Positions 1 to 34,109 of a stretch of 38,299 nucleotides of DNA are shown here, piece after piece. A model generated the notes under the pieces. The model made no database searches. It saw nothing but the letters and a program-made list of their open reading frames with translations, and was not told the origin of the DNA. Numbering within the stretch: position 1 is the stretch's first letter; every line of letters starts with the position of its first letter. The translations under genes and the position numbers were made by a program. This DNA is from Jaapia argillacea MUCL 33604 (Eukaryota > Basidiomycota > Agaricomycetes > Jaapiales > Jaapiaceae), in assembly GCA_000697665.1 (NCBI GenBank), contig KL197709.1, positions 316,598 to 354,896 on the forward strand, written 5' to 3'.

Positions 1-529
1 ACAAATTGGGGGTTAGATGCTCCATCCTCCACAAATCCTGGCAGATTCTGGGATGATAGGCCTTTGACCACACCAATCCACTCGGTTTCACCCTTGGCAA
101 GATTCCCACACTCAGAAAATCCCTAACCGTGAGAATATCTCTTGGCCAACCCATCATTTGCAATTGAACTGGTTGCTCTGTTTCATTCGAGTATTTTAAC
201 ATCTGACAGAGAAATCAAGCAGTGTAAACTGTCCAAGGTCAGTGAGTGGCTGATGAGAGGTAAATCAAGGATTTCTTCCAAGGCACCCGTACACAAAGGC
301 AATGTACCAATGGTTGTCAGTTTCATTCCCAAACTTTCTAGCCAATATGAGGGTTTCCTAACAGGATTGGACTCGAAGGATGCTGTAGCTTTAGGCATTT
401 GAACCACCATTATTTTTATTCCATTTGATTCGAGGTTTTTTCCTGCCACCTCCTTGCCAAATGGCAAAAGTGGCAGTTGCTGGCTTGCCGGCAACTGGCA
501 GCCCCCCAAAGGGGTTGCCATCAACACTA
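1..529 (-). mobile_element. hAT-like non-autonomous element X, copy 1 (cut by window edge)
   Basis: The stretch matches the reverse complement of 21945-22473 with only a few differences seen by eye. Its inner end at 529 is TTGCCATCAACACTA, which is the inverted counterpart of the start of copy 2, TAGTGTTGATGGCAA. The 8 bp that follow (530-537, CACATATA) correspond to CACGTATA next to the opposite end of copy 2. TAGTGTTG termini and an 8-bp target duplication are typical of the hAT superfamily. The last 100 bp hold many TGCCA/TGGCA pentamers, as in subterminal transposase-binding repeats. About 126 bp of the element should lie left of the window. An 86-codon open frame (142-402) is shared with copy 2, but I see no transposase motif in it. 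Confidence 0.75.
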
Positions 530-537
530 CACATATA

Positions 538-3199
538 CCTTGATGACATATTTGTATTCTCTAATTCGTTGGCTGAACACGAAAAGCATTTGGAGTTGGT
601 GTTCGCGAAGCTCTGCAAAGTGAAGCTATACCTCAGTAAGAAGAAGTGCAGCCTGTTCGCCGAATGCATCGATTGTTTGGGACACATCATTGATGACAAA
701 GGGATCCATGCCGATGCCGACAAAATGGCTAAGGTTAGGGAGTGGTGAACTCCTCACTCTTATCACGATGTGCAACGCTTCTTGGGGTTAGTTCAGTACT
801 TGGCCCCATTCATGCCTGATGTGTGCACCTTCACAAGTCCATTGTCCAGTATGGTCTGCAATGGCCAAGCTTTTGTGTGGAGACCTATCCATGATAAATG
901 CTTTGAAAGCATCAAAGCGCTGGCTTGTCGTGCCCCTATTCTCAGACCAATAAACCCTGACAATGGAGAGACTATTTGGGTGATCTGCAACGCTTCGCTG
1001 ACCGGAGTAGGAGCGTTGTACGGGCAAGGACCCGACTGGTGGATGTGCAGACCAGTAGGCTTCAAGTCGAAAAAGTTCACCAATACTCAGCAGTCATACC
1101 ACACCTACGAGCACGAGACGATTGCCATACTGGAAGCCCTGATGAAATGGGAAGATAAATTGCTTAATCAAAAGATAGTGATTATCACTGATCACAAGGC
1201 TCTTGAGTACATGGGGTCTCAGAAGAATCTGTCGTACCGACAGGTGCGATGGAACAAATATCTCAGTCAATTTGACTACACAATCCAATATGTGAAGGGA
1301 AAGCTCAATAAGGTCGCTGACTGCTTCTTGCAGTACTATGAGTCGGACAACTTCGATGAATGGCAGCCAGAGAACAACTACATGAATGCAGATGTGCGCC
1401 TCGACCCTGAAGGGGACAGCCTCCCAGTGGCGAGGATCCAGGAATTTAGAGCAGCTCAAGCTACTGGTGCTAGGGCTAAGAAGCTCCCTCACACTGGACC
1501 TGTCCGATTGGGACGGCTACAGGACGCTACTGTAATAGAAGAGAGATACATAATGTCGTGTACCATGGCGGAGGCTATACCAGAGGAGCCACTCCCTATA
1601 CCCGCTACTCATATTTCCCTGGAGGATGATGATAACCCCACTCTAGAGGAGGCCATGAAGGCCCAGCCCTCGCTAATGAATAGCATTGAGCGTGATACTG
1701 ACCTCATGGCGGTTGTCCGGAATGGATACACAGATGACGCTTTCTTTTCCAAAGTAGTTGCGGATATTCAAGGGTTTTCATTGTTTACCCTGCAAGACGG
1801 TCTGCTACTGACCAAGGATCGACAAGGGGTCGAGGTGGTGTGCATCCCCTGAGTCATGGTGAACAAACGGTCCCTCACCAAGATCGTGATTGAGCATAGT
1901 CACTCCATACTCAGACACTTGGGGTCATTCAAGACTACTGAGTACATCCGTCATTGGTACTGGTGGCCCAAAATGGCCTCCATTGTTGAGAAGTACTGTG
2001 ATACGTGCAATGTCTGTGCTACCACCAAGACCGTCAATCAAAAACCTATGGGAAAGCTACACTCACTCCCTATTCCGCATTGTCTGTGGGGGTCCATTGG
2101 GATGGATTTTGTGGGACCCTTTCCCAAGTTGCAAGGGTTTGACTATCTATGGGTCATCATCTGCTGATTGACAGCCATGGTGCATTTGGTGCCTGTCCTC
2201 ACCATGGTAACCGCATCTGAGTTAGCATGGATTTACCTCGATTGGTATGTCTGACACCACAGCCTACCAGATTCGATAGTCTCCGATCGAGACAGCAAGT
2301 TCACATTGAGGTTTTGGAGGGAGCTCCATCGATTGCTGGGATCCAAACAGTTAATGTCTACTGTGTTTCACCCACAGACAGACAGCTTGTCAGAACGGGC
2401 TATACAAACTGTTAACCAAGTCATGAGGTCCATGGTCAGTTCTGACCAGTTGGATTGGATCGAAAAGGTCCCCATGATCGAGTTCGTGATGAATTCAAGC
2501 ATCAGTTGCACAACGGGCTTTTCCCCATGTGAACTCATTGGACCTATGCCCCATTTGAACTCATTGGACCTATGCCCCATATGATTCGTCAGCTCAATCC
2601 GTCGCTCGCTATACCCAGGGTGAAAGAATTCACGCTTAAGGCTTTGGACAATTTATCCAAGGCCCACGACACGATTTTGGAGAGTCGAGTCACTCAGGCC
2701 CATCACGCCAATAAGCGTCGTCGTGTTCCTTGAAGGAGACCTGGCCTTTTTATCCACTGAGAACTTATCACTACCGAAAGGCAGAGCTAGAAAGCTCATG
2801 CCGAAGTTCGTGGGCCCATATAAAATTCTTAAGGCAAACCCTATGGAATCGACTTACACACTCGAATTACCCGAGTTGCTAAAGTCACAGCGAATTCATC
2901 CCACGTTCCATGTTAGCCGTCTATGAAGGCATGAGAACAACGACGAGGTCATGTTCCCTCATTGAGAGACCAAGGTGTTCTATGACTTTGGCAAGGATGA
3001 CGAGGCTCAATGGATGGTGGAGTAAATCTCAAGCCACCAATGGGCTAAAGGGAAACCTCAGTTCTTAGTTCGATGGACTTATGGTGACGAAACATGGGAA
3101 ACACTCCAGAATTGCGACAAACTTCAGGCACTAGACCATTATCTGGTATTGTGTGGGGTTAGCACCGCTGCGGAGTTACCCAAGAAGGCAATTGCCTAA
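538..3199 (+). pseudogene. gypsy-1 pol, C-terminal part: RT end, RNase H, integrase, chromodomain
   Basis: Most of the relic reads in one frame. It opens with the YLDD box of RT and its GHIID thumb region. The RNase H domain spans roughly 960-1330 (ICNASLTGVGA ... ITDHKALEYM). The integrase has an HHCC zinc finger (HSHSILRHLG ... CDTCNVC, about 1890-2020), then catalytic Asp in MDFVGPFP and in SDRDSKF, and Glu in LSERAIQ. A chromodomain-like end follows (PQFLVRWTYGDETWE, about 3000-3145). Stops interrupt the frame at about 746, 1850, 2165, 2254, 2924, 2963 and 3024. A 26-bp tandem duplication near 2531-2582 shifts the frame. The first RNase H Asp is Asn (AAC), which fits CpG decay of GAC. It would have copied and integrated the element in the nucleus; it is not functional now. 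Confidence 0.93.
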
Positions 3200-3325
3200 A
3201 AGTGTAAATTGTGGCTCATCAACTGTACAGTTGTCTATAATTGCCAAATTTGTCACATTCTTTTCTTCTTATTTGACCGTATCATCGAATCCTCTTGTTA
3301 TTCTCTGCTGTTTTAATTCATAATC

Positions 3326-5338
3326 ATGGGCAACAAGGATCATTACGGCAAAAAGCAACGATGCTCTCGCTCTCATTCCTGCTCCTGATCTAGGTCCTGC
3401 TGTGGGACCAGCCGACAACACGACAGGGAACGTTCCCTGAGTATTGAGGATGAACAATCAGTTCCCAGCTCCTATGTGTCCGACTCTGAAAGTTAATCTT
3501 GCCATTCCCAACACAATCGTGGTGAAGGACCATTGCAGTCCTTGCAAGTACACAATCTCAATGCTCAGGGTCAATCCGAGTGGGTCTATAGTAAGATGTT
3601 TGGCATGCCTCTTCACACTGATTGTGATATCTACTCCTGTTACCTCCAGCACAGTGTGGCTGATGAGGCCAGATTCCGTGCTCACATCGAATCCCAAATC
3701 GATGCTGTTTGATAGGCCTCTAATTCACTCCGAGATATGTAAGCTTCCACCTCACGTCTCGAAGCACAAGCAGCTGCGAACGAAATCCGAGCCCAGACTC
3801 TCGTTTCCCGTATCGCTGAGCTTGAAGCTGAAGTCCGGAATCGCGAGCTAATGGCAGTGTGTACTGCCTCTGACTTAGGTGAAGTGCAACGACGTTTGGA
3901 TGAGGCCAATCTCAAGATTGCGTGTGGGGACGCCGAACTGGTGTATATGCACAGGCAGGTGGATACTCAGGCACAATTTGCAAATAGGGGAGCATATGGG
4001 CCCCATCGACCGTTCAGAGGTTGTCGAGGTGCTATTCCATCTGGGGGAGTTGTGTCAGGCAGCAACACCGTTGGTGGGTGTTCATGTTCACGCTCCATTG
4101 ACCACGGTACTTATGTTCGAAAATAAGACATGACGTCTGAAGCCACCCTCCCATCTGTGTGGGGATCGGGAGAAGTTCCCCCTCCTGAAATGGGAGGCTG
4201 GGGAAACATCAACCCTAACTCGACAATGGGTGCTCCACAAGGAGGATGGGCAGCTGTCGAAGCTGCCGAGGCTCAGACAACCATCATCAAATACCATTGT
4301 CGAGCGACCTCTCTCGTTGACCATAAATCCAGGTACCACTTCAACAACAAACCCAGGTGGTGATACCTCCACCTCAGTCGCAAACCTACCATCCACTGAA
4401 CGAAAGCGGATCGAGGGTGAAATAGCTACTGGGGCTCGTGATCGACCAGCTCATCTTCCCCCTCCCTGTGGAAGTCGTCCTTTTGGGGGAGGAAGTCACC
4501 ACAATTTTGCCAATGCTACGACTACACAAACTAATAGCATGTTGGCACGTAGGCCAACAACTTATGATTCCGACTCTCGACTTTCTGAAGCCGATATCGT
4601 TCGTCCTCTTCCAATCACCAGGTCTACCACCTTTGACGACATCTGTGAATGGTTGGCGTACTTCAAACATTCCCCAGGGGAGCGACCCCTCGGGGTGCCT
4701 GTGGAAAGTAGCCTGGAACAACTGGATATGATCCAGGTGTGGTTATGGATCAACCAGGCTGGGGCTGAGCTATCCAGACCAAATCGTCACCTGTTTATGA
4801 CAAACACCCTCAGTCTCATGTGGAACCTTGGTACATTCGAGGTGTATTGTGCCAGCCACCCCTGCAAGGAGATATTCGATGTAACTTCATTCACAGGTGA
4901 CCCTGCCAATGTGGAGCACATCCTGACCTACTGGAACAATACAAGTATATCATTGAGTCAGGTGGCCATGTTCAGCCGTTATCATAGCAATTGGGCAGCC
5001 GCACAGGCTGAACCTCCCTCTCGTCAACCCGCACATACTAGGGCATCTCACACCTTGGAATCGACCAACACTCCTTTCTCATTGGTAGTCGCATCAAACC
5101 CCCTCCCGTTGCCTCAGATGCAGATGTGCCAATGGACAACCCTATTGATTTTGGGTCTGATAATGACGAGAACAATGGTAGTATCACCCTCTCCCCTGAG
5201 GCCATCGCGTTGGGACAAGCCGGGGCTGTGATCACCACTATCATGACTGCTGCTGGGGTTATATCCCCCTCTCGTAGCGAGTCCAAGGGCAAGGAGGTTG
5301 CTCTGCATGACGACAATGATGAGGCCGACAGTGAGTAA
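3326..5338 (+). pseudogene. extra ORF between pol and 3' LTR of gypsy-1 (function unknown)
   Basis: An ATG at 3326 starts MGNKDHYGKKQRCSRSHSCS. The same frame continues to about 4270, with stops at about 3386, 3494, 3713, 3716, 3740 and 4124. It then shifts to the frame of 4230-5231 and again near 5110-5126, ending ADSE at 5338. The order is an Arg/Ser-rich N-terminus, a probable coiled coil at about 3760-3950 (AELEAEVRNREL ... EVQRRLDEANLK), a Gly/Pro/Thr-rich linker, a globular C-terminal part at about 4600-5010 rich in Trp and aromatics, and an acidic tail. I recognise no domain. Because it lies between pol and the polypurine tract it belongs to the retrotransposon. It could be a third structural or envelope-position ORF, but I see no signal peptide or membrane segment. 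Confidence 0.68.
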
Positions 5339-5486
5339 TTGTTGATTGAGTCGATGGCCATGAGCCATCCGGGTATTTACCCTCTCTCACAATTTTCCCA
5401 ACTGTTGGTATCATTTTGTTCGTCCCCTTTATCATTTTTTCAGGTATCCTCAAGCATTCGGATTCCCCAGTGGATTTGGTTCTCAT

Positions 5487-5495
5487 GGGGGAGGA
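5487..5495 (+). other. polypurine tract of gypsy-1
   Basis: GGGGGAGGA directly precedes the TG of the 3' LTR. This is where second-strand DNA synthesis is primed in LTR retrotransposons. Its position fixes the LTR start and places the extra ORF upstream inside the element. Confidence 0.8.
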
Positions 5496-5780
5496 TGTAA
5501 GGACTTGGGTCCTTCATGGACAGTTGCAGGACTGGTGGCTGAGTTTGTTGTTGTTTGTTGTCATGATTGAGACCTTGTTCGTCACTGGCGCGACTTCCCT
5601 TCCAGCAGATTATCTTGTGCTGTGTTCACTCTATTGTCTCACTCGCCTTTGTCTTGCTCTCTTGTCTCACTTGCCTTTGTCTTGCTCTCTTGTATCCTCG
5701 TGCTAGTTACTGCCCATCTCTATAAGAAGGGTTATGGTTCTACTAGTGTGACCTCAAGAGGACAGATAAGGCGCTTTACA
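5496..5780 (+). repeat. gypsy-1 3' LTR (285 bp)
   Basis: It begins TGTAAGGACT and ends GCGCTTTACA, so it has TG...CA termini. It aligns end to end with the reverse complement of 27846-28102. It is 28 bp longer because of a tandem duplication of a TTGTCTTGCTCTCTTGT-containing unit near 5645-5695. Apart from that, all differences from the other LTR seen by eye are transitions, almost all at CpG. The 5 bp after it (5781-5785, ACTGA) are the target-site duplication and match the 5 bp outside the 5' LTR. Confidence 0.93.
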
Positions 5781-5785
5781 ACTGA

Positions 5786-6031
5786 TCTTGCAGTAGATTA
5801 GATCTCAGACCTGAACAACTGATTATCTCCGAACTTGCAGAACCTTCCCGCTCTGCAATCCTGCATTGAGTGGTTATCTTATCTCAGATTCATCCGAACC
5901 CCACGATCTCTACTTCAGGTCTGTTTTATCCATCAATGCTTTCTAAAATAACTGAACTCCCGTTCTTCAATTTCTATCTGAAGACAAACTACCCTTTTCT
6001 CTCGGACCTCACGCACCCCAAGTACCCCACA
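5786..6031 (+). repeat. remnant of an LTR of the TGTGGGG/CCCCACA family (3' end)
   Basis: The last 80 bp (about 5950-6031) closely match 30473-30547, and both copies break off exactly after AAGTACCCCACA. That shared break marks an LTR terminus. Further upstream the similarity fades but can still be followed (CTACTTCAGGTCTG against CTACCTAGTCTG). This copy has T or A at several sites where the other has C or G in CpG. Gypsy-1 is inserted into or next to it, at ACTGA. Confidence 0.6.
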
Positions 6032-6372
6032 GCATAAGGGAATGATTCGATCTCGAGGGAGAGGTTGCATGGTCTGGCTGAGGTCAGATAAGGTGTGAGT
6101 TTTGGTGGGGGAATGAAGTTCCGACCTGCAGAAGAGTTCGCTGGTCAGAGAGCCACTTGGGCAGGGGGAGTTAGGATGAGTGTCTTGGCAAGGATGGAGG
6201 GGAGGGACATCGAAATTCTGCTTGTAAGGAGGGTCTGGACCCATAATGATATACACTGCACCTGTAGTCGAGGACCAGAGGGGTAGATTGTCCATTTGTT
6301 GAGCTGATTCAAGGAGAGCACACAAAGTCTTCCAGCAGACAAAGGGTTTTCCACTAGTCCTGATTACCTATT
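6032..6372. other. no gene recognised
   Basis: This could be the internal region next to the CCCCACA-ending LTR. Minus-strand frames at 5933-6325 and 6145-6354 are open, but they run across the LTR boundary and show no domain. Confidence 0.4.
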
Positions 6373-6740
6373 CTACAATACTGCTGACTGCTTCCACACA
6401 CCTTGGTGTAAATCTCAGTGACTGTTGTACAATAGATGGGATGATTGTACAATGGCTTGTATATTATACAATGGATTGTACAATCTGTGAATGATTGTAC
6501 AATCAACTGGCAATGGATTGTACAACCAACTGGTGATGGATTGTACAGCCAGGAATAGATTGTAGAATATGGGTGATAGCATTGTAGAATTACTTCCTGC
6601 ATATAAAAATTCGGTGGAGTCACAATAAAATATGGTTGGGCATTTAATAGAATCACATGACCTGTCAAAACTGTAAAATAGATTATAAAATACAAAAAAT
6701 AGTCGAAAAATCAGAATAAAATTCTACCCGCGTGCTATAG
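6373..6740 (+). repeat. AT-rich repeat with TTGTACAA palindromes (probable transposon terminal region)
   Basis: TTGTACAA occurs at 6425, 6445, 6476, 6495 and 6518, with near copies at 6541 and after. Several are spaced 19-31 bp apart and preceded by GGA or TGA. The first 50 bp, including ACCTTGGTGTA, resemble 21770-21820 in the same orientation, downstream of the transposase gene. That region also has TTGTACAA at 21835 and 21894. I read this stretch as the 3' terminal part of another copy of the transposon family represented at 14330-21944. Its own coding part is missing. Confidence 0.45.
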
Positions 6741-7153
6741 GGGGGTAGGGACCAATGGCTTACCTTTGGGTATCTGACTCACAATGACTAACTATACCTT
6801 TGTCTATCTTTCAATGCTCAAGTGTTGGAATTGTTGACCTTTGAACGATCAGGTCTAGTCTCAGGCAGTCTGTCATGGATAGAAGTTGTTGGAGCAATAA
6901 GGCTTGATAGCTAACCTCAGATGTAAAGTGGGTGAAAACCGAACCTTGCAGTTGTCTCAAACTGACTATCTCAAGTCATGGACTCATATAAGAAACCTCT
7001 GGAATGAATGTCTTTACCACCCTCCTCTCAGCGAGCACCTGGCAAACGTGAAATCGGTAGTCAACTGTTCATTATCAAAAAAAGTGAAGTTGCCAAAACA
7101 GACAATGTGAGTATTTAGGATTGTAGTCCCCATTTCTGAGTGCCCAATATGGG
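6741..7153. other. no gene recognised
   Basis: The stretch lies between the TTGTACAA repeat and the gypsy-2 relic. A 68-codon plus-strand frame at 6904-7110 shows no family features. The G-rich run at 6738-6751 (ATAGGGGGGTAGGG) may be the end of the preceding element. Confidence 0.35.
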
Positions 7154-10100
7154 TTATCCCACATTACCAGCACAACCGAGCATCAACCAAATGACTGATT
7201 TCCACCTCTCGAGAATATTTTTGGTGGGAAAACAATATTGTGGGAATGTTGATGTAGAAGCTGGCGACAATTGACTTGAAGGAGCTCTTGGGAGGTTCTC
7301 CTTGATGTATGGATCGTCTGAGTAGTCAGACCAAGGGGACGAATTCGAGGTCGTGGGCAACTGAGAGCTACCCATTGGCACATAGGGCATGGCAGTCGTG
7401 AGGAGAATGGTGTGTGGGGAAAGTAAACAGGGTGGGATATACTCAGTTGAAGTAGGGGCAAGGGAAAGTGCTGATAGTGGTGGAGGGGATGGGGAAGTCG
7501 AATGCGAGGCTGGAGAGGATGTGTGGGTCATGGGCAGGTTGAGAGGAAAAAGGTGTGGTCGTTCTGGACAAGCCAATCCTGGCAAACCCGAGGGTGAAGG
7601 GTCTGTGAGTGGAGGAGATGATGGGTATGGAGTGGGAGGTCGCTTGGGTCCATATAGCTTCCCCGCAATCTTTCTGCTTCTGTACTTCCTTCTCTTCCAG
7701 CGCTCTCCCACGAAGTCGTTCTCCTCATCGGAATCTGTGAGCTCTGCTAGAGGTGGTGGAGAGTCTGGATCTTCCTCAAGTGGGAGAGTGTGGGTAAAGG
7801 TTGAGGTGGAGGTGTACAAGGAGTGTGTGGTAGTCAGATTACTGGGGGAAGGTGTTGATTGGTCGTCGGGAGAGAGACTAGATGGTTGTGATGGGCTTGG
7901 GAGTTCAGACGTAGCTAGAGATGGGAGTGGAGTAAGCAGATGTGGTCAAATTCGAGCTTGTTTCCTTTGGAGAGTGTACTGACCTGGTTGACTTGCGACT
8001 GGCACAAAAGAGCATTCACTCTCCATTTCTACAGCTTCTCTGCACAAGGTTCCTGAGCAAGTCGGCTCCTCTCCTTCTATGCACATTCTCTCCTCTTTGT
8101 CTGCAGGTACCCAGGGTGGAGGGCTCTCGTACTCCTCGTTGTCGGGTGAGGGAGAGGGTGAGTCATACTTGTAGATCACGTCACCTTTGTCTGGCTCATG
8201 ATCTTGGTCGTCAGTTGACGAGAGAGGAATGTCGTCAGAAAAAGCGACCGGTGAGGGAGGGTTGTAATTCAGCATGTGGCAGATCCAAATGCCTCTTGGG
8301 AGGTATCCCTCTCCCTCCAGAATGTTCTGGCATGCAGATGGTTCGTTAGAAATGGGGGAGGAGGAGACAGGAGGGTTGGCAGTGAGTGGAGGATTTATGG
8401 GATGGGAGGGTTTGAGTTCTGGGTCGTCGAGAGGGTTCAGATTGGATTCGAATGGAGAGGTAGTGATGGTAAGGGAAGAGGTAACGGGAGAAACGAGTGA
8501 AGGGTCTGGGTGAAGCAAAGCAAGTGCTGCAGGGTTGGTGTCTGCGGTGGGGGTCAGTGGGTAGTTGTACACCCAGTCAAGATCAGGCCTCCAGCCACCG
8601 TGTGATTTGAGGTAATATTCGGCCAAGGAGGAGTCCATATCTTCAGGGTTGAAGTTGCCAGCAGGGATTATGAGGTCTTCAGGCCTTGCCTGAACCATTC
8701 AGACTTGAGGTAATACTGCAGCAAAGACGTCTTCGTGAGCATGAGGTGAAAGGTGCTTTCTTGGCAAAACCAACATCTCAAGTCAAGATGTTGAGTTATT
8801 GGAAGCACCAAAAGTGACATATGTACTGTCACTTCGTTCCTCTATAGAAATGAAGTTTTGTAGCATCCACAGACGTCCAAGTAATAAATCAAATGGAACA
8901 TGGTCAGCTACCCAGAACTCTCCTCAAGTAGTTACTCCTCCACAAAGGAGGGGTACTCGAGTAACAAGTCTGCGCATCTTACCTTCACCTCCATTAGCGT
9001 CATTCATGATTAGCTTCCAAGATTTGTCAATCAGAAGGCATGTTGCCTGCTGATAAATTCACCAATTAAGGATATTGATCTCTGATCCTGAGTCAATGAT
9101 CGCATGAACCTTATGTCCATCAACTTCGATGGGGATTGTGATAAGTGGTCCACCTAACAACCTTTGTCCCTCTTCCTCTACGAACACTACTGTTGAGCTC
9201 TGCTCCGGTTTTTTCACTTTCAAGAGAGCTTGGAACTCACCAGCCACATCCTTGGAGAGTCCAACGACTTCTCCAACCGTCATCAAAAGAGGGGTGGCTA
9301 GGATTCGAGTGAGTACATCCTTCATATCAATCTTCTTTGCTAGCTCAGACTTACAAGGGTTAGGGCCTTTCGGGTTAACAAAAGGCTTCGGTTTCATCTG
9401 GGCGGTCGCAGGCTCAGTCACACGATGCTTCAAGAGCATCAGGTCTTCCATGACAAAGTCCGAATTGTTGGGATCGATAGGAAGGTCAGGTCGGATGTTG
9501 ACTGGGGTGATCCCAGTGGGGAAGGGGTTGGGCATGGGGTTGAGAGTGTGAGAGGGTATAGCAGTTTCTGATATTGGTATGATGGAATTGTGGGTGGGAG
9601 ACTGAATTTGTGAGTTCAATTCATCCCTTCTTTTATTCCTTTTCCAAGTTGGTCTGGGTGGTGGATACACACCATCCAGAATTTCCCTCCTTTTCGTGCC
9701 TGCGATCTTCTGACTGTGGAGCACAGGGTACACTCCCATCTTGTCCCCTTCATCGTCACTCTTGTCACCAGTCTTGTCTGCCTTGTCCGCTCCCAGGCTA
9801 TAGGATATAAAATTCACTGAAGGTTTCATTTGTTCTACTGCGGCTACAATCGATTCACCATCTTCTTGACAGATTCTGGTCCCATCCATCATCATTATCC
9901 TTCCAGCTTCGTCCTTGGTAACTATTCCTTTTGTGAGGAGCTCTGTTAACTCAGGGCATGTATTCATCATGTGTCCTGACTGGTTGCACCTGAAACAGTG
10001 CATCCCCATTCCTCCTGAACGATTTCCCATTGCTCTAGAGGGTCCTGGAGCATTTCCGCCGCTTGGTAAGTTTGTTCTATTGAAATTGGAGGTATTCTCA

Positions 10101-10950
10101 GTCGGATCGATGATCCGTGGGGCCCTAACTACTTTTGCGATGTCAGGATCCATTTTCAGGGCTCAGTAGTACAGCAGTCCATACGTCGGGTTGTCAATGG
10201 ACATGGCCCCCATCTGCTGAATCAGGTTCTCCATGTTGTCACGGAATCTTGCCGCATCCTCCTCTCTCTCCAGCCGTTTCAGCGCATCTCTCACCGGTTT
10301 TCCTACCATCAACTCTCATTCTTGAACGCCAGGCGTTGCTTCTCGCCTTCAGCCTCCTCCTTGTCTTTTCTTTGTCAACAACAGCGGTCTTCCCCCTTGT
10401 CTTCCCACTACTCTATAGTGATGTTTCATTTGCACCGTGTCCAGGTCCTCATTGCTCTCAGACTCGATCGACTCCTCCGTATCTGAGTCTTCCATTCTTT
10501 CTTCATTGTTATCTGAGTCATCTGCATCAAACCTTTCAGGGTTCAGAATGAACTCTGCGGCGTCAATGATCTGACTGATCGTGAAGGGTTTCCTGATGTC
10601 ATGGTCAGGTGTGGCTTGCATGATTCACAGCTGGAGGACGTCTTGCATCTGCCTTGGTAGGCCCTTCCAAAAATATTTATCATAGAACTCCTTGCTAATT
10701 GCCTTCTTGTGGATTAGCCATCCTCCTACCTGAATGAACTTTCGTTGGTAGGCATGGAATTCTTTTCTCAACAGGATTGGGAGTCATCAGGTCCATCTTG
10801 CCAATGCTTGGAGATCCTTTTCTTTATACCGTAAGTTCTCGTCTTCTGAGTCGTACAACTTCAATATGTCTGCCTTCAGGTCTGACCAACTGTAACAGCT
10901 GTGTATCAACAGCTCGTCACTGAGTCCGAGAGGTGTCTCCTATCGACACT
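7154..10950 (-). pseudogene. gypsy-2 gag-protease-linker polyprotein relic
   Basis: One minus-strand frame can be followed from about 10950 to 7154 through several stops. It contains a capsid-like segment (about 10620-10950, with YFWKGLPRQMQDVLQL), an acidic Asp/Glu/Ser stretch, and a CCHC zinc knuckle CFRCNQSGHMMNTC near 9957-10000. After a Pro/Asn-rich region comes a retropepsin-like protease with the active-site IIDSGSEINI near 9070-9100 and the later hydrophobic VPFDLLLGR. A Pro/Ser/acidic linker follows at 7154-8698. RT, RNase H and integrase should follow but are absent, so the element is truncated at both ends. The CCHC type and the long linker distinguish it from gypsy-1. I see no LTR. 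Confidence 0.85.
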
Positions 10951-11408
10951 GGCGGGCTTCAGAGCTACACTGGTGTGTTGACTTGAACAGGTAGCCTCGC
11001 AGTCAAACACACGTAGAATGTGTTCCTAAGTGCTACATGAATAGCTCCTTAGGGTGCTCGATAGTGAGGCATGGTTGTATGCACAACCATCCTGAGACAC
11101 GAGAGCATGTCATAGACACGCAAGAGGAATCTAAAGAAAAATATGAGCGCATATCGTGTCCTATTTCGGACGTGAGACACAGGAGGTGAGCCTTAACAGC
11201 TAACCATGAGATATCAGAAACTAGTAGTGTCGCTCGATTCACAGATCGACTGTCAGTCAAGACATCGAACGTGAAGAATAATAAGCAGATTACATTCAAG
11301 CTAAGTGTTGTATATGATACATAGGCGCGTGTGCACAGAGTTCTAATATTTCTAAGTCTGTTGGCTGATTGCAGAGGCCACCACTTCTGTACCCATTACA
11401 TAGCCCCC
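10951..11408. other. no gene recognised
   Basis: The stretch lies upstream of the gypsy-2 gag relic and downstream of the minus-strand gene at 11409-14153. The minus frame at 11033-11299 has no recognisable domain. It could include LTR or leader remnants of gypsy-2, but I found no partner copy in the window. Confidence 0.35.
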
Positions 11409-14153
11409 CTAGTCTTTGCAAGCAGTCTGAATGTCGTCCGAATAAGAGTCCCTCTCCCATTGTAAGGGGGGAAGACCACGTGAAGCAAGCAAGTCAGGAA
11501 ACTGTTGGCACAAACAGCAGCATAGAGTTTCAGTGTGCGACATGGATCCTGGGTCCAGGATGCAGTTAGGCGATTGTACGTGCTGCTTTGCCACTTTCTT
11601 CCAACTTATCCTTCCCAGGGGAATCCTAGTGCAAGCCATGATACCCTTGTAGATGTCCTGGAACCACCTCTCGCACTCTGAGTTCCAGTACCCATGCCAG
11701 TGCTCGAAGTCTTTGAAGTGCTCGAGTTGGGGCCAAAGCCAGAGGGTACTCTCTGTCAGGCCAAGCAGGAGATTCTGTTCGTCGTTCAACACGATGTAGT
11801 CAACTAGATCTGTCCCATGTTCAGCCTGAGTATAGCCCTCTCTGATCGCATAGCTGGATGGACTGGTCAGGCGGTTGGAGTACATGTCCAGTGAACCCCA
11901 CATGGTAGTTATACGCCACAGGAGTCCTCCCTCCTTCAGCACTTGGCGCATATGAGGCCGTGCAAGAAGGTTTCGAACAGCTTCCACATAGTCGGCACAC
12001 ACTTTTTTGTAGTCAGTCCCATTCTTTCTTTTCGAATGAGCAAATCCACGTCCAGGTTTAAATGTATTGGGGAGAGGGTCTCTACTGGCAGAGTTGTGTG
12101 TGGCTGGCCGCATTGGTCCCAAAGATTGTACCTGGGTAAGTGTGAACATGGGCCTGAAGTTTGCCCCTATGCAAAGTAGGTATGATGCAAAGTTCCTAGG
12201 CTCCCAATCTGGATTGGAGGTGACTAAGTGCCATAAGAGGAGCTCTGTCTGAGGGTCGCATAGGATGATCACATTCCTTAAGTCGATGTTGTGAATGGAG
12301 ATCTTGTCATGTCTCCAACCATCCATCAAAGGCAAGCACTTGAGTAATGGAGCAAAGGCTTCCTGAATAAATTCAGGAATACCCTGCAGGGAGGTCAGGA
12401 CCCTCAGGGTGAGTGCAGGGGCAGAGCTGTAGCCCTCAGACCTGGGAAGCCTTGGCGGGGGTGAGGCGCTGCGAATTCGGCTGGACAGCCTACCATGAGC
12501 AGGACGTCCAGATATGGTTCATCTGGGGGGCGAGGGCCTGTAGACACATTTGCCGTCGCTTGAATATTTGCTGTAAGTCTGAGATGTACTCGAGGACAGT
12601 CTGGGATCGATTGTGTGCTCAGGTGACCTGATCCTGGGGCGAGATGAATGTCGTTGATCAGCCGATCGAGCAGGAGATGTATAGCAAGCCGATCGAGCGA
12701 CAGAACCATAGTGAGCCTTGCTGATCTGGTCCTCCAGAGGTCTCTTCACTGGGGGGTTCTCGAACCTATCCTGTAAGGGAGTGTGTTGTCAGCCCCTAAA
12801 CAAGCTGCCTCTGCTCCTGTAGCTGCAAGATGTGCTGCAAGAGAGTGGACGTCGATTTTGTGAATGTTCTCTCGACAATGAGTATCGATCTGGGGATCGA
12901 GAGCGAAGGGAGGCCAGGGATCTTGCTAGTGAGTGACCCTGAAGGTAGGCATCTGACCTTGGAGGTGTGTGAGGAGATGTGGGACCATCTTGAGTACCTG
13001 GTGGATCCACGTGTATGGGGGAGTGTGGTCGGGGTGAGGGGCTACAGGTCCTGGGAGGTGTTTCAGGTGCTGACGACCATGATTGGGCATTGTCCATTCC
13101 TGTTGGGGACCATGACAGAGCCCTTGGTTCATCCGTAGCAGTGACAAGATCTGCTTTGATGTCCATCTCAGTTGCTAGCACGAAGAGAGGTAAATGATAC
13201 CAGCTATCAAGCAGTATCGACTGCAATGCCTCCTGTGCCTCTCTTGAGGCCTATGGGTCCCCTTCTGCAGCCAGTGCTGCATCATCCAAGTTGCAGGCAG
13301 CCTGCGCCTCCCTCTCATCATTAAGCTGGCGCTTCTCATCTCTGGAGAGCTTGGGTTGCGATGGTTGCTGAGGGGTGGGATTCTGCTTCTTGGATTTCTT
13401 TCCATAGTGGCATGCCTTTGCCTACTTGGTCTGCTTCTTGGTTTGGAGGAATTTGGTGTCCAGTTCAGTTTGGATCACCCCTGCACTCCTCACACCATTA
13501 TGTTTGGGTTCCCACTGGAGCAATGTGAGCTTCACTACTGCCGCTGCTCGTTCCTTGTTGCTCCAAACGTACGTGACCGGAACAGAGTGTTTGAGCTATT
13601 TGAGGACTGTGATAAATGGCATGTCAATCCTGAGGATGTCGATGACCACTCCTCAAACAGGAGCTTCATCCGCTAGGCCCAAGCTCAAGACGATCTTGAT
13701 GAAATCCTGTATGAGCCAATTGAGAGTTTGCCACTGTGCCAAGGAGCACAAGTGGAAGCAGACAAAGCCCAGCTTTACTAGCGCCTCGTGATGACAGTCC
13801 CACAAATGGGCCATGGCTTCCTCTGTAGAAACGTACAGACGATTGAGGAAGGCTAAGTTGGGGAGTGGGAAGTTATTGTCTAGTTTTCCAATATGAGGGA
13901 GGATCTCATATAGGAGGGTCTCAACCCTCATCACGTCGTTGTGGCAAGCGATCTTTCCTCCTGGCTTGAATTTGAATAGGGTTGCATCCTGCTCGGAGGG
14001 GCGCAGGATGTGGTCAGCTGGCTCGTGATAGCACCAGAGCCAGTCAGGGCCAAGAGATCTGTTCTTCTGAGGGATATACTGTAGCAGAATGATTTGTAGC
14101 AACAGACCTCTGTGGTGTGGCACATCAGATTTGAATACCTTGGGGCAACAGAT
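11409..14153 (-). pseudogene. large decayed gene of unknown function, divergent from the transposase locus
   Basis: Four open stretches (13653-14123, 12789-13226, 12519-12749, 11409-12335) lie in exactly one minus-strand frame, so this was one protein of about 900 residues now broken by a handful of stops. At least the stop at 13653 is TGA, which CGA would give. The N-terminal third is hydrophobic and Trp/His-rich (SLGPDWLWCYHEPADHI ... NRLYVSTEEAMAHLWDCHHE). The middle is low-complexity, with Arg/Ser/Pro repeats (SLARSLASLRSRSPDRYS). The C-terminal third is globular (DGWRHDKISIHNIDLRNVII ... ECERWFQDIYKGIM). I recall similar sequences as multicopy hypothetical proteins in Agaricomycetes but cannot name a domain. 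Its head-to-head placement with 14330 suggests a shared mobile unit. Confidence 0.6.
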
Positions 14154-14700
14154 TGATCATGACTCGTGATGGGGGACAAATTAGCAAGTGTTGGCAGCAG
14201 CAGGCAGTTGCAGGGGCCCTATTTGAGCCAAGGTGACATGAAGAAATAAGCGATAATTCAGTGGAAATTCACTGGGTTTGTTCTGAGCTGAGGAGAATTT
14301 TTACTCTCTATGTTGTTGAGAAAACCACCATGTTGTCCCAACCCCCTCCTCTTACTGGGGTTCCTCAGCCTCTCATATCCCGAATTAACCATCTTCTCCC
14401 TCTTGACCCTCCTGCCGAAGAGTCAAAGTACATTTTCGGCCTGGATGCCGATGACGAGAAGGAGGAGGGGGTTTGGTATGCATTCAATAGTGACCTTGAG
14501 AGGTGCTTTGAAACACACACCCTCGGGTCCCATGGCAGCCTTATTCAATTCCGTGAACATGGTAAACAGCTTGAGGATCTAACAAGCTTGATGAAAGTGA
14601 CAGTGAAATGGCTCAATGAGGGAGAACGTACCTTGTTCGAGAAGTGGGTCAACCAATTGATTGATGCAGCCCAGGCAGTCAGTGCCAAAATTCCTCCCAG

Positions 14701-14756
14701 GTGATTTTGTTATTGAACTTTCATTGAACACTCACACTGACCATAACACATCTCAG
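14701..14756 (+). other. predicted intron (56 bp)
   Basis: The donor is GTGATT, with a CACTGAC branch-like site and acceptor ATCTCAG. Removing it joins exon 1 to exon 2 in phase 2 and moves the reading frame exactly into the open frame of 14815-15207. Confidence 0.6.
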
Positions 14757-15282
14757 ACCAAAGCGGAAGGAAGCTGAGGAACCATCAAATGTTGTCACTT
14801 GACCCAGTAAGACTGTGAAAACGGGGGAAGAAGGTGCCGCCATTCTGGTAGACCGTAGCACTGATGGCGAGCAGACCAGGTCCGAGACCACTGTTTCCAG
14901 AGTTGCTGTGATTGTGGTTGACAGTGATGACGAGAACAATGTTGTCCCAGGCTCAGCTCATAACGGTCCTCCAAAAACCATCGGTGGTTCGTTGTCAGTC
15001 ACATCCACACCCTCTGAGACTCCGAAAGAACTCAAGCAGACTTCATTCGATAACTTCAAGTGGAAGGTCTTGTTGCGTGAGGAGAAGGAAGCCCAGAACA
15101 GGAAGGATGTTGAGCAGCTCCAAAGGAGGATGGTCAAGAAACGGGAGGAGGAGGCAGAGAGGAGAGAGATCAAGGCAGACAAGAAACGAGAGGTTGATAG
15201 GGATTAACAGAGAAGGCACAGAGAGAAGACGAAGAAGGAGAAGGTGTTGACTGGGAAGGTGGGAAAGAAAACAGCCAAGATG

Positions 15283-15335
15283 GTGAGTTGCTTAACAATG
15301 ATGCAGCCACGACATGGCTAACCTTGATGCTGTAG
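15283..15335 (+). other. predicted intron (53 bp)
   Basis: It has the donor GTGAGT, a perfect GCTAAC branch site near 15318 and acceptor CTGTAG. It lies after codon ATG in phase 0 and links the coiled-coil exon to the Cys/Trp-rich exon. Confidence 0.65.
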
Positions 15336-15510
15336 CAACTCCTCAGCCATGATCCTGGTGCTGTTGAGCTTCCCGATCTTGCAAAAATATCACGACCTGC
15401 TGGATCCTGCTGGAAGACAAAGCAGAATGGGAAGAGAGGTGGTGCCATCCAGCTTAAGCATCGATGTATGAATTGGTATCACCCCTTCCTCTGGCAGGAC
15501 CCTGGATTAT

Positions 15511-16715
15511 AGACAGTTGGGTGGGATAGGTGTCCTGGTGGTGATCTCAGTGAAAATGGGCCAAGGTCGGGTATCATCCAAGTATCAACATTCAGATTCG
15601 ATGGAGATGTTGGATACCTGGTCTCTGTATATGGTCTGGAAGTGTTGGAAGGTCGGGTACAGATCCCGGTGCTTGTAGCACATGTATCATTGTTGAGATC
15701 TTGATATGTTCAGACTTCCATGTCAGGTCAGGTCAATCCAAACAAAGACTAACAACTCAATGTTTCGATGTGGTGATTGCATCGTTGACACCTGTGCGTT
15801 GCTTCCCCTCCGCTGTCTTGTTGTCATTGGATATCGTCGATCCAGATGTTTGCCCACAATGCACCATGTTCCACTCTTAACAGGGCATGAAGCAATGCCC
15901 CTTGTTGTCGAAAGAGCTCCATTCACAAGTCCCCAACCATGATGAATACCATGAGCTGTCGCACACAACAAGATGACACTTATTTCTCAGTGGGTAATCT
16001 TGTTCCTACTAACAGTTGCTGGGAATCAAGATTCGCAATGTCAGATTGACGGGACGGAGTACACTGGGATCGGTGAGCTCAATAAATTATCTAGGACCCT
16101 TCGATTCATGCTGACATGCAACCCAAAGCTTTTAAAGGTGAGGGGGTAAATCCCTTGAATTCCAAGCTCTTTGCCACATTCACCAACTCCCCTCAATGTC
16201 CTGAAAAACCCCCTTGGTGAGGAAGGTATCACTCAGACCCACTCGTACTGATGTGACCTTTCTGCTCTCGTCTGTTCGATGGTGCTTTTACTCAACCGTG
16301 GTGCTCGTTTTGCTTTGTATTGTTGCTTTGTTGCATTGGCTTGCAGTCTTCCAGACTGTCTCTATTTCTTCTCAACTGAGGATCAATGATTTTGCATTCA
16401 TGATTGTCTGGATGTTCTCGCTTGTCTTTGGAACCCTGAGTCTTGCATGGGGTAGGTTTGCACTCAAATCAATCTTTTTAAACTGAACTGACCCCTTCAA
16501 AAGCTCGGTTTTGTTCACTGGACCTGCAATCAGTCAGAAACTCGATTTGGTCTACCCGCCGACAACGCTCCCATCCATTCAGTGTTTCATCTCGCCGATA
16601 CATTACACTCCTCAGACAGAACTCGACTTACTTTACAGTTCATATCCAAGGTCTACCCAATCAATCACATGAACTTTGTGTTTGTGAGTAGATCACTTAT
16701 TTTTGATGGCCTCTC
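15511..16715 (+). other. decayed middle of the transposon locus, with one likely exon at 16016-16137
   Basis: No long frame is convincing here. An open piece at 16016-16137 (CQIDGTEYTGIGELNKLSRT ... NPKLLK) is bounded by an acceptor with a CTAAC site (CCTACTAACAG, ending 16015) and a donor (GTGAGG, from 16138), so it looks like an exon. The frame at 15336-15690 stays fairly open past one TAG. The hydrophobic plus frame at 16214-16486 is not supported as a gene. The stretch probably held middle exons of the gene that ends at 21760. Confidence 0.4.
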
Positions 16716-17013
16716 TTGTTAAGGGCAGTTTCATCAGTAATCAGCAATGAGACACTTGTCTCTGGACTTCGATGTGATATCTCCCGTCAAACAGGCCTAC
16801 CAAGCCACCTTCACTATTCTTTGTACTTAGATTCTTATCCCTTGCCCCTTCCTGACAGTGCAAATCTCGCCAGTTGGGGAGTTGGCTTGTTTTCTGCCTT
16901 GCATGTTCATGTACCCATCCTTGGAGGTTCGGGGGCTATCAACCAAAATTCCGATCTCAGTACAGCAGAGAATCGAAAGCAGGATTGAAGTAACTCTGAT
17001 GCTAATGATGACG

Positions 17014-17078
17014 GTATATCTTTTCACTGTTCCAACCTCTTGTTCTTCACTGCTAATAGTTCCAACCCCCTTGCTTAG
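17014..17078 (+). other. predicted intron (65 bp)
   Basis: It has donor GTATAT, branch-like TGCTAAT and acceptor TTGCTTAG. The split codon G|AT joins the frame of 16716 to the frame that continues QECYSLSSSVKG. Confidence 0.55.
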
Positions 17079-17183
17079 ATCAAGAATGTTATTCATTATC
17101 CTCCTCAGTCAAGGGAAAGAGCAAATCCGAGCCTTCTCCACATAGCCTGAAGGCAAAAAAGCAGAAAACCATATTTGAAACAG

Positions 17184-17240
17184 GTGTGTCTTGTTCCTTG
17201 TGTTTCTTGGAATGTAGCTGACCAACTGTTCGAGAACTAG
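17184..17240 (+). other. predicted intron (57 bp)
   Basis: It has donor GTGTGT, branch-like AGCTGACC and acceptor GAACTAG. The split codon G|GC joins the Lys-rich linker (KAKKQKTIFET) to the protease exon. Confidence 0.55.
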
Positions 17241-18538
17241 GCCCAGCAAGTAGTGGTTTGTCTTCTGCAATACCCGAAACTGCCACCTACAAACCAGAAA
17301 CAATCTTCATTGAGGATCATGAGCGAACCTCAGTCCATGATTCACCTACTCCATTTGAATCTTCGCGTTGGATAAAACAGGGGAAACAGTACAAGGATGT
17401 CCCAATGACTGTCTCTTTGGAGCTGTGTCGCCGTGTTCGTGTTCCACCCCCCGCGACCATACTCCTTCCACTGGGCAACATGCCCATCCTCAATCTTCTT
17501 GATTTCACCCTTCCTCGTGTCCTGGGTTCCTTTCAGCTCATCCCACCCATGAGTTGTTTCTCTTCAGATGCTCCCAATACTGGTTTTGAGAGCATAATGA
17601 CCCAGCCAATCCCTTCTTGGGAATTCGTGGAGCAACTATGAGCCTCGGCCGGCCAGGCCATGTTGGATGGGATGTTATCCATCTGTAGTTGGCAAGATAA
17701 ATCGTCACCCCTCTGCCTTCCATTCAGTGTGATGTCATTTTGGTTGACACTCCACATCGCAATATCTGCTCAAGATGATTGGGCTCGGACAGTGAAGTGG
17801 CTTGCATCGTTTGGTATTCCATCGCTGGACCTTGCTAAAGCATGTGCACATTCTCATTATTTGCTTTCCATCATTCCATGGAACCAGTGGATTCCATCAT
17901 ATGGTCACGTTGGAGAGTTTGCCCAAATGCTGCAAAACAGGTTTCTCAGCGATACCATCATCAATGCAATGATTCATAGAGTCAACTCTTGTTTGTTGCT
18001 CTCTCCATCCCCTCCAGCCATCTTCATCACTAGTCTCCAGCTTTCGACATACCTTGTTGGTAACACCTCTCTCACAAAGAAATCTCCTCTGACTCATCCG
18101 CCATACAATACACAATCAGCTGGTTATCTCCAAGATATGGGCAAGCAGGTGAAGGAGAGCACTTGTATCCAGCTTCCCTCCCCCTTCTATAGCCCGCCAT
18201 ATCATTGGGCTGTAATCTCCATCAACATTCTGCTTTGCACCATCCATTGTGGTGACTCCATTGGCCAAAATTGTCCCAAGGTTCTCGTAACAGCACTCGC
18301 AACCTGGCTTCGACACCATTTTGGTGGTCGGCCATTCACTTTCTCCAACAACCTTTGGTGTGCCAGGCAAGACGATGATAGTGTCTCCTGCGGCATTATC
18401 GCGATTAATACAGTCAAGCACCATGCCTTTGGAGAACCATTGTGGTCCAAGACAAACTGGGAGTTACTGCGAATCGAAGAATTCAATAGTATTCTTGGTG
18501 ACTTTGTAGATTCGTTTGATCCTGAGACTGTACCTCCA

Positions 18539-18600
18539 GTAAGTATGCTATCCATAACTTGGGATTTGATTGGACTGACAATGGATTCTGTTGTGGTCAG
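18539..18600 (+). other. predicted intron joining protease to transposase (62 bp)
   Basis: It has donor GTAAGT, branch-like GGACTGAC and acceptor TGGTCAG. It is phase 0: the protease frame ends at codon CCA (18536-18538) and the Ser/Pro-rich linker starts with AAT at 18601. It is the main evidence that protease and transposase were one polypeptide. If it was not spliced, the protease would end at 18706. Confidence 0.75.
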
Positions 18601-18645
18601 AATACTCCAGCATCGACATTTCCAACTGCTTCAGCCTCGGAGTCG

Positions 18646-18940
18646 ACAATGCTATCACCGCCGACATCACCTTCACTCTCCAAGCCTTCTGATGTTGCCT
18701 TGTTGATATCTCCAGTCCATCTGCAGGATAGCAAAAGTACTCGATCAGCTACACCTCCAGCTGCCTCTTCCTCCACAACGCCGTCACCATTGGCATCACC
18801 TTTACTCTCCAAGCTGTCAGATATTGGCTTGTTGATATCTATCGTACATCTATGTGATAACAAAAGTACTCAAGCTTCATCTCTCACTGCTTCTCCCTCT
18901 ACAATGCCATCACCATTGGCATCACCTTCACCCCCCACCA
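18646..18940 (+). repeat. 43-residue tandem repeat in the protease-transposase linker
   Basis: Copies start near 18646, 18775 and 18901 (129 and 126 bp apart). Each encodes a variant of T-x-PSPLASP-x-LSK followed by SDxxLLISxVHL; the third copy is partial. It is a flexible Ser/Thr/Pro-rich spacer that has expanded by in-frame duplication. Confidence 0.8.
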
Positions 18941-19860
18941 TTCTTGATCCAGTGCTACCGCCATCTAAACAGGTCGGCACTAAGAAATCTCGAACGCTAA
19001 CCAAATCTATGGATTTTGGCCCAGTTGGAATTAGTTGCTCTGCAGTGGCAGCCAAAGTATTGATGGCCAAAGTGGCAGCGGGAACACACATCATCGACAA
19101 GGAGAAATGGGATCAATATGTGGAGAAGATCTTGGCAATGGACCCAGATGCCGAGGTTGAGTTGGATGAGCCACTCCTCATCTGTCATTCTGTTTGCAGG
19201 AAGGACTTCAAACAATGGCCACTTTATGATATGGGCAATTTCAAGAAGCATCTTGAGAAGTGTAGGCGATCCACCCAACCAGCTGGGGGGACCCATACAT
19301 TATCATTCCTCTTCAAATCTCTTAGTCACTGACAATCTTCTTCCTCGTTAACCCCCCTTTTGATTGCCCGTGCTGCTCGCCCAACAATCCTCCCTCCTGA
19401 CCAATATTGGCCCTGCCCTGGCTTGGCCGAGAAGAATAATGCCCAAATTCCAATTTATCTCTCACGCACTCAAGTCTCCAGTGCAGGGGGGAAGTCTACT
19501 CTGTTCATAGCCAAGGAATTTTACCCAGAGATTACAAAGCTTCGGCACCTCTCTGATGACCAACGAGAGGTTGTTGATCTGGCACAAAAACATAGCCACA
19601 TCTGGCGGAACGACCACATTCGCCAATGTGTCTTTTCTGTTCATTGTTCAGAACAGGTTCATCAAGCCCCACAAGACTTGGACGCAAAGCTGTGCACCCC
19701 ATGTTTCGCCCTTTTGAAGATGTCAAAGTTCAAAAATGTGTTGAATCGGAAGGAACACACCTTGAAGAACAAACTCTTCACACCTGACAAGTATCTTGTT
19801 AATCTGGAGATTTCTAAAGTAATGGCAAAGAATCCTGCTCTCCAGGGCATCCTTGAATCA

Positions 19861-19912
19861 GTGAGTACAAAGTATCAGTCACGTTTAGCTTGTGTTGTTA
19901 ACCCCCATTCAG
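19861..19912 (+). other. predicted intron in transposase (52 bp)
   Basis: It has donor GTGAGT, branch-like GTTAAC and acceptor CATTCAG. It is phase 0, between codon TCA and GAC. It brings the frame of 19360-19860 into the long frame that ends at 21760. Confidence 0.75.
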
Positions 19913-21760
19913 GACAAGCCCTTCCTAGCCACGTTCATTGGGCAGCTCCTTGCTGGAAAGTTTGATAAGACTCCAGTCTTTACAGAACTCCTCCAAGTTA
20001 TGGCAGATGTTACCAATCGAGAAGACCATGGAGTTGGGCTTCAGAACATGCAGTATCCAACCAGTTATGACCAGTGGGCGCAGACAATGCAGATCATTGC
20101 ACCCCGAGCGTACTGTCAGTTCAAGCACGTCTTTCCCTCATGTAGCAAGCGAAGTCATCGTGGACGCCGATCGACTGCACCTAAATTTCAACAAGGAATC
20201 CACATTTGCATCGACAAGCGACTCTCCAAATACTGCTCCAATTACAACTATCCCCCCGACGCGCCACTTGCTCAGGGTGTCGATGATACCAAACTCCATC
20301 GTGCCTTCCGCCTGTCATACGTTGCTGAGAAGGGCAAGTGGTTCATCTATGGGTCAATTGGGCAGCCCCTCGAAGTTGCCAACCCTGAGGCGTTACAGGA
20401 TCAACTTGATGCTGCAGAGTCCCTGAAAGCAGACAAGGTTCGATTATGGATCATACAAATTCCCCTCCCATATGTCCCACCTCTTGTCCTCGCTGTTGAA
20501 CCAGTAGGCGCAAAAACCAATGCGGTGCAGCTAGCTTCATTTGAAACAAAACTCCTCTCCTACATCATTCCCAAATTCACAATCATCTCTATTGCCTCTG
20601 ATGGTGCTGCTCCAGAGCGAGATGCCCACAGGCTTCTTGCCACAAACAATCCATCTGTTCAGTACCGAATTCCATATCCTGGAGGGGGGAAACCTCCTTT
20701 GATTTTCTCCATGATCAACCTTGACAGTGCTGTTCTTACCATCATCCAAGATCCCAGCCACTGTCTGAAGACCTTGCACAACAATCTGTTCTCTGGGGCT
20801 TGGTTGCTCATCCTGGGTCAGCACCCAATCTACTATGAGCAAGTGCAAAACATAGCGTTTGATGAGGTGGGACCTCTCTACCGCTGTGATGTTGAGAAAT
20901 TGGACTGTCAGGATGACCGTGCTGCTTCACGACTATTCTCCGCAGCAGCGTTGAAATATTTGGTTGAATCGTATCCAGATAATCTGGGGCTGGCAATCTA
21001 CCTATTTGTCTTTGGTGATATGGTAGATGCCTACCAGAACCGAGCGATCTCCCACCTCGAATGTGTGAAGATGGTCCTATGAGCCAAGTTCTTCAAGGAC
21101 ATCTGGAAGACCTTTCTCCAAGAAGCCGGATATCCCAAGGCTCGATATTATATCTCCCAAGAAGCTGATGACATTAGTGATATCCTCATCAATGGTTATA
21201 TATCACTGGTTATCATTCACCAGGATCATTTAGAACGACCTCACGCATTCCCCCTTCTTCCTTGGCTTCATGGCACATCTCTGAATGAGCATGTATTTGG
21301 GGTGTGGTGCTCCATTCTCAAAGATCCTACAATGCTCGATGTCCTTCACCTCATCCCAAAAACCAATGCGATGCTTCAGTCAGCATGCCAAGTTCGATAC
21401 TCATCAAAGGCTGATTTCAAGAAGACGGCATCTGGCTACTTCAGTGGCGAAGGGGCAAACCTCCATGTTCTGGCTGAGTACCCATCCGACTCTGAGATTG
21501 CTAATGCTGCAAATACAGCTCTTGAGGAGGCAATGACACTATGGGATCTTCTTGGATATGATCCCTCTATTTCCAGCCCTTCGCTGCTACCTCCGCAACT
21601 AACCATTGACTCCTCGGTGACCGAAGATACTTTGGATCAGGAAACCCACGACAACAACAACGATACAGAGTCCATATCCGACACAGATGAACTACTATCC
21701 CCCAATGCCGATCTTCAAGCAGCTCTTGACGAGAGTCAACATGTTGAGGGGTCCTGGTAA

Positions 21761-21944
21761 ACTCTAGTACAATACTGTGGTAGTTGACCACAGACCTTGG
21801 TGTATAAGTCCTGGTGAATAGTACCAGACTTGCTTTGTACAAAATGCACTGGTGTTTCTGTAGAACAGAATCTGATAAAACCAGATGTGTTTTTTGTACA
21901 ATCTATGTTTTGTATTACAGTATGTTATTAGGATAGGGTGGGGG
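21761..21944 (+). repeat. 3' flank / terminal region of the transposon locus
   Basis: This AT-rich stretch has TTGTACAA at 21835 and 21894 and the ACCTTGGTGTA motif near 21794, both shared with 6373-6740. It ends in GATAGGGTGGGGG, directly against the terminus of X copy 2. The 8 bp GGGTGGGG (21937-21944) should be the target duplication of X copy 1 if the inversion model is right. Confidence 0.45.
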
Positions 21945-34108: not shown

Positions 34109-34109
34109 A

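Follow-up and report, generated by a model that had tools for sequence, protein, structure and literature searches.

A 21.4-kb segment inverted between two opposed hAT-like elements divides three nested elements in the Jaapia argillacea assembly

The stretch of DNA analysed here (the window, 38,299 nucleotides, C1:316598-354896) belongs to the assembly of Jaapia argillacea MUCL 33604, a basidiomycete of the order Jaapiales; the assembly comprises 43.7 Mb in 95 contigs, to which the C numbers refer. One protein encoded in the window has 100% identity, across 93% of the query, with a hypothetical protein of this strain. The window contains a Ty3/gypsy retrotransposon, gypsy-1, in two separated halves, and next to each half lies a copy of a hAT-like element that we call X, surrounded by further repeats designated M, T, T2 and G0 (Table 1). 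In the assembly, positions 530-21944 are inverted between the two X copies, which are opposed in orientation and measure 655 bp when complete. The inverted arms (1-530 and 21944-22473) are 99% complementary and both breakpoints coincide exactly with X ends (529/530 and 21944/21945), so that homologous copies in opposite orientation sit precisely at the two points where an inversion by recombination would place them. This layout of an inverted X pair, two gypsy-1 halves and their junctions had been proposed in an initial annotation of the window, and it is borne out by the complementarity of the arms and by the ACTGA pentamer found on both sides of gypsy-1. What the annotation had missed is that the outer flank of the left X is unreadable, owing to a scaffold gap of 3861 N (C1:312737-316597) that ends directly before base 1 of the window.

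That the two gypsy-1 halves are a single insertion is strongly supported by sequence comparison. The long terminal repeats (LTRs) run from TG to CA, as in Ty3/gypsy elements, and the 5-bp target duplication ACTGA matches at 5/5 positions outside both of them, as the annotation had claimed. In the 3' half, the Pfam families RT_RNaseH and Integrase_H2C2 score over their cut-offs past the YLDD box of the reverse transcriptase (RT), and the protease matches of the 5' half stay below the curated cut-off. The open reading frame (ORF) of the RT region, 22801-23496, gave no Pfam match, and therefore the RT assignment in this half relies on the YLDD alignment. The annotation had suggested comparing the rejoined order with other gypsy-1 copies, and the two stretches are indeed contiguous there; a fuller alignment of the flanks, set beforehand as a possible refutation, found them to match. 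Its statement that the order of one insertion is restored by flipping 530-21944 is strongly supported, the pieces being contiguous in paralogs of gypsy-1, T and G0. The opposite view, that two separate gypsy-1 insertions merely resemble halves, draws on nothing beyond the inverted layout and has to face the same 5-bp duplication together with contiguous flanks at two outer levels. It is refuted by the empty-site tests described below, and we give it almost no credence. The conclusion of one insertion holds with or without a mis-join in the assembly, but whether the inverted order exists biologically hinges on that question.

The annotation had also placed the cut in both halves at the same YLDD box of the RT. 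The YLDD alignment agrees with this, but the halves overlap there by 38 bp, and a 41-bp unit had gone unnoticed. This extra tandem unit, whose length is not a multiple of three, covers the YLDD box on the right half (22600-22655, minus strand) between two ATTC repeats, and it is lacking at the 10 other gypsy places compared. The order on the right half is an ATTC-led unit, a second ATTC-led unit up to CACGTATA, and then X. The 38-bp overlap is best read as the combined product of two duplications, one of 41 bp in tandem and the 8-bp one made by X, with X probably inserted in the second unit, and we prefer this reading because it accounts for every base. An inversion through staggered breaks that duplicated 38 bp was rejected, since it leaves 11 bp (ATCCACGTATA, 22600-22610, minus strand) unexplained.

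Two elements outside gypsy-1 are divided at the same two points. The first is T, the 1.6-kb repeat that hosts gypsy-1 and that carries T2 as a 1.8-kb insertion. The sequences flanking the 5' LTR (28103-28720) and the 3' LTR (5781-6031) are contiguous, at 85-91% identity, in the T copies of C10, C28 and C82, which are the three fetched from a longer list. The second is G0, an older retroelement that hosts T. In C78, the segments corresponding to 31316-31686 (minus strand) and to 6039 onward lie 6 bp apart and the colinear match runs on at 68-85% identity, while C11 has the same order, with 31317-31689 followed by 6160-6282. An integrase-like ORF at 34086-35396, with Integrase_H2C2 over the cut-off and rve just below it, is possibly part of this host element as well. 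The 4-bp duplication of T itself, GTGT/GCAT, agrees at only 2/4 positions; it is weak, its mismatches fit CpG decay of GCGT, and it is not counted here. Because the outer flanks are contiguous in the T copies and in two paralogs of G0, one flip of 530-21944 rejoins the three nested elements gypsy-1, T and G0 at once.

Table 1. Coordinates and strands of the features of the inverted locus, in window positions
Feature	Position	Strand	Remarks
Left X (hAT-like non-autonomous element)	1..529	-	5' end at 529; 529/655 bp, remainder in scaffold gap
Right X, complete, 655 bp	21945..22599	+	ends TAGTGTTG...CAACACTA
X target duplication, half in gypsy-1, CACATATA	530..537	+	7/8 vs 22607-22600
X target duplication, other half, CACGTATA	22600..22607	-	7/8 vs 530-537
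38 bp at YLDD box, present on both halves	530..567	+	identical to 22648-22611(-); single in 10 other copies displayed
gypsy-1, 3' half	530..5780	+	RT end from YLDD box, RNase H, integrase zinc-binding domain, 3' LTR 5496-5780
gypsy-1, 5' half	22600..28102	-	5' LTR 28102-27846, weak protease match, RT up to YLDD box + 41-bp tandem unit
ACTGA, gypsy-1 5-bp target duplication, after 3' LTR	5781..5785	+	
ACTGA, gypsy-1 5-bp target duplication, before 5' LTR	28103..28107	- (28107-28103)	
Repeat M, first half	21746..21944	+	broken at 21944 by X
T, 3' end (target of gypsy-1)	5781..6031	+	contiguous with 28103-28720(-) in 3/3 fetched T copies
T, middle part	28103..28720	-	T copy comparison
T2, T-like element in T	28721..30547	+	TGTGGGG...CCCCACA ends, perfect 4-bp duplication TCGA
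T, 5' part	30548..31312	-	T copy comparison
G0 part, host element of T	6032..10163	+	blocks colinear with C78: 6039-6090, 6144-6238, 8564-8616, 8746-10163
Other side of T insertion site in G0	31313..31686	-	then 6039+ in C78, 6160+ in C11

The element at the breakpoints matches at 7 places of the genome, the left and right copies included. Terminal inverted repeats of hAT elements begin with (C/T)A..G, and the ends of X fit this start. Four of the other copies have both flanks readable: an 8-bp target duplication is found at 8/8 positions around the copy in C55 and at 7/8 around that in C10, in C12 it matches only with a one-base offset, and in C5, where the match omits the last 9 bases of one end, there is none. 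The copy in C3 ends at a run of N. From its ends and from the 8-bp duplications in C55 and C10 we read X as a hAT-like element, whose mobilisation by another element is assumed. A genome search with an 18-base terminal inverted repeat (TIR) pattern, at up to 1 mismatch, found no autonomous element with the ends of X: the 11 exact matches are all within X copies and one more appears at 1 mismatch; the reversed pattern, used as a control, matched 6 times at the same tolerance. Domains for hAT dimerisation are present at 31 places of the genome; one such match (L008:2639-2818, C1:309638-309817) lies near the X pair, about 3 kb to the left of the scaffold gap. It was also considered whether X might be the end of a larger transposon that includes the ORFs upstream of it. 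This was rejected, as X copies are solitary elsewhere (two of them with their own duplications) and M continues past the X site in other places. A row of plus-strand ORFs occupies 17642-21760, with no Pfam match in the three tested. One of these ORFs has at least 80 homologs, the named organisms among the matches listed being Jaapia itself, Hypholoma and Mycena, and a copy at C6 shows 84% identity.

The two X copies of the window are very similar to each other. Over the 529 bp that can be compared, 526 are identical, and the three differences (X positions 40, 49 and 402) are all CpG-type transitions, leaving 0 non-CpG differences and an uninterrupted identity of 352 bp over 50-401. Pairs of either copy with C10 or C12, and C10 with C12, are identical at 518-522 of the 529 positions, so the left/right pair is the closest. 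Counting only non-CpG differences, the pair stands at 2 from C10 and 3 from C12, a small contrast given that C10 and C12 differ from one another by only 1. Moreover, the left and right copies share a substitution of non-CpG type at site 79 that the five other copies lack. For comparison, the LTRs of gypsy-1 show 13 differences over 257 aligned sites, of which 12 are CpG-type, and their lengths differ by 28 bases. These figures agree with an X pair that would be much younger than the gypsy-1 insertion, with CpG content uncontrolled and non-CpG counts (1 in the LTRs, 0 in X) too small for dating. Most of the differences among repeat copies are transitions of CpG type (12/13 in the LTRs, 3/3 in X), which suggests methylation-linked decay or decay resembling repeat-induced point mutation (RIP).

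The initial annotation had described an 8-bp target duplication of X formed by CACATATA (530-537) and CACGTATA (22607-22600); the two do pair, but they agree at 7/8 positions. At the one position that disagrees, the change is a CpG-type transition; the closest gypsy paralog, in C34, reads CACGTATA, the CpG form. With the flanks swapped between the two X copies, the duplication reads TATATGTG/TATACGTG, at 7/8, against 3/8 for the GGTGGGGG/TATACGTG that surround the right X in place. A match of at least 7/8 to TATACGTG is offered by only 11 of the 76,584 octamers of the window, both strands counted. This bears directly on a reversed-ends transposition involving two X copies in direct orientation within gypsy-1, a process that in maize gives inversions bounded on both sides by a hAT element, according to the available part of PMC8225341. 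With two donors, the flanks should differ and the stretch between the donors should be gone; here, the gypsy-1 sequences next to the two X copies make up a single 7/8 duplication from a single site, and the RT instead has 38 bp twice. We have rejected this route on the ground that the donor flanks form a single site, and we think it very improbable.

On its other side, the right X interrupts repeat M. Apart from the window and the C6 copy, there are 17 M-like places, of which 14 were compared at the X position; L053, L055 and L056 were omitted, as their matches stop short of the junction. In 11 of the 14 the sequence that follows is (T)CAAATAAA-like; of the remaining three, 2 reach a run of N and 1 has a different sequence. 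The absent portion of M, a TCAAATAAATCGG-like sequence preceded by GGTGGGGG, is expected on the minus strand outside the left X, within the gap. A copy of M to the left of the gap (C1:312424-312633) was considered as this missing half and rejected, for it has the wrong orientation, a 5' part of its own and 79% identity.

The position of the gap raises the possibility of an assembly artefact, in which gypsy-1 would be undivided with one X inside, a second X would lie in M, and contigs would have been joined the wrong way round at X. The 3861-N gap extends right up to the left X, and the further X copy in C3 likewise ends at N. The 352 bp over which the copies are identical are longer than short reads, so that a mis-join would be possible if the reads were short. 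Nevertheless, the right X has been assembled through the variants at 40, 49 and 402, which reads of more than about 355 bp would phase, and the size of the gap is non-round, as would be expected with mate-pair linkage. Taking both sides into account, we consider an artefact unlikely, but with enough weight to be kept in mind.

For a flip that did take place, homologous (ectopic) recombination between the two opposed X copies is the mechanism that we tentatively rank first. In this sequence of events, G0 took in T, and T took in gypsy-1 with the ACTGA duplication. X would then have inserted first in gypsy-1 and afterwards, probably by a local hop, in M, some 21 kb away and in opposite orientation. 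A crossover between these two X copies would finally have flipped the segment and left gypsy-1 dismembered, an outcome that implies no function. Exchanged target duplications are a published sign of the recombination route in the Galileo inversions of Drosophila, as the accessible part of PMC2775673 presents them. Our ranking has two reasons, the first being that opposed repeats of the size of X, so near to each other, are expected to recombine often. The second is that hybrid-element events are, to our knowledge, documented mainly in a few model systems.

Such an event, a hybrid-element insertion between sister chromatids, is the alternative that fits the junctions equally well. The initial annotation had attributed the inversion to recombination between the inverted X copies in one step; this does fit the junctions, but hybrid-element transposition leaves the same ones. 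It would be a natural one-step transposition of a single X, originally in gypsy-1: after replication, a hAT transposase would pair the 5' end of one chromatid's X with the 3' end of the sister's X and insert them into nearby M, with the result that the stretch between is inverted and a sister copy of X stands at each end. Only a single event is needed after the first insertion, and both the identity of the opposed copies and the exchanged duplications are predicted. The observed 526/529, with three CpG-type differences and 126 bp of the left X unread, the shared substitution at site 79, and the 0 non-CpG differences as compared with 2 to C10 and 3 to C12 are in line with this prediction, and identity at non-CpG sites is predicted at least as well as by recombination. 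According to the available text of PMC2775673, hybrid element insertion results in a clean inversion, and identical copies mark such insertion while chimeric copies mark recombination. The 31 places with hAT dimerisation domains may also be counted in its favour. On the other hand, a recent local hop followed by recombination, or gene conversion, also yields identical copies, and identity is weak evidence when the unlinked C10 and C12 differ at just 1 non-CpG site over the same stretch. The TIR search returned no autonomous element with the ends of X. In addition, the sister-chromatid events of maize, as far as the accessible parts of PMC8225341 and PMC3744419 describe them, are inverted duplications, composite insertions and deletions, not clean inversions. 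In our opinion, hybrid-element insertion is a real contender, albeit an unlikely one.

Several points weigh against recombination between X copies. All comparisons are made within one assembly, where paralogs stand in for the uninverted chromosome. The second exchanged duplication pair, at the M site and expected to be GGTGGGGG, would lie within the gap; the predicted junction of an X end with M has 0 matches in the assembly at up to 3 mismatches. The X copies, without a non-CpG difference in 529 bp, offer no informative sites for a chimeric structure, which would be the decisive mark of recombination. Finally, the extra step of a local hop is needed because two of 7 randomly placed insertions come this close, within 22 kb, in only about 2% of draws (no insertion preference modelled), a proximity that hybrid-element insertion explains by itself.

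The class of event is already known, a fairly ordinary transposon-driven rearrangement, and three systems invite comparison. No publication on this locus or on inversions in Jaapia, and none on exchanged duplications in fungi, was found in a search of titles and abstract openings, with subscription literature mostly outside the search. The closest likeness is with the Galileo inversion 2z3 of Drosophila buzzatii, where, in the portion of PMC2775673 available, two opposed transposon copies stand at the breakpoints and exchanged 7-bp duplications and chimeric copies are shown, the non-inverted chromosomes having been sequenced. The Jaapia locus differs in having one duplication pair in the gap, an X too uniform for chimerism, a hAT-like element and a length of 21 kb. 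Alternative transposition of maize Ac/Ds, as outlined in the accessible text of PMC8225341 and PMC3744419, likewise concerns a hAT element with 8-bp duplications, and its reversed-ends events produce inversions with an element at each breakpoint; unlike Ac/Ds, X is without an identified transposase partner and the donor flanks come from a single site. Hybrid element insertion of the Drosophila P element, named in PMC3744419, would yield identical opposed copies and exchanged duplications in one step (outcome as in PMC2775673, in the part available), but P belongs to a different transposon superfamily, and the Jaapia event is deduced from one assembly only.

We think that the value of the locus lies in its being a well-marked transposon-flanked inversion, whose nested insertions provide independent yardsticks for the sequence in which the events took place. 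In addition, it illustrates how a gypsy element cut by an inversion can pass as two truncated elements and mislead repeat annotation. If the inversion arose by hybrid-element insertion, one transposition of a lone non-autonomous hAT element, in a basidiomycete, would at a single stroke have copied X, turned 21.4 kb around and broken up a nest of three elements.

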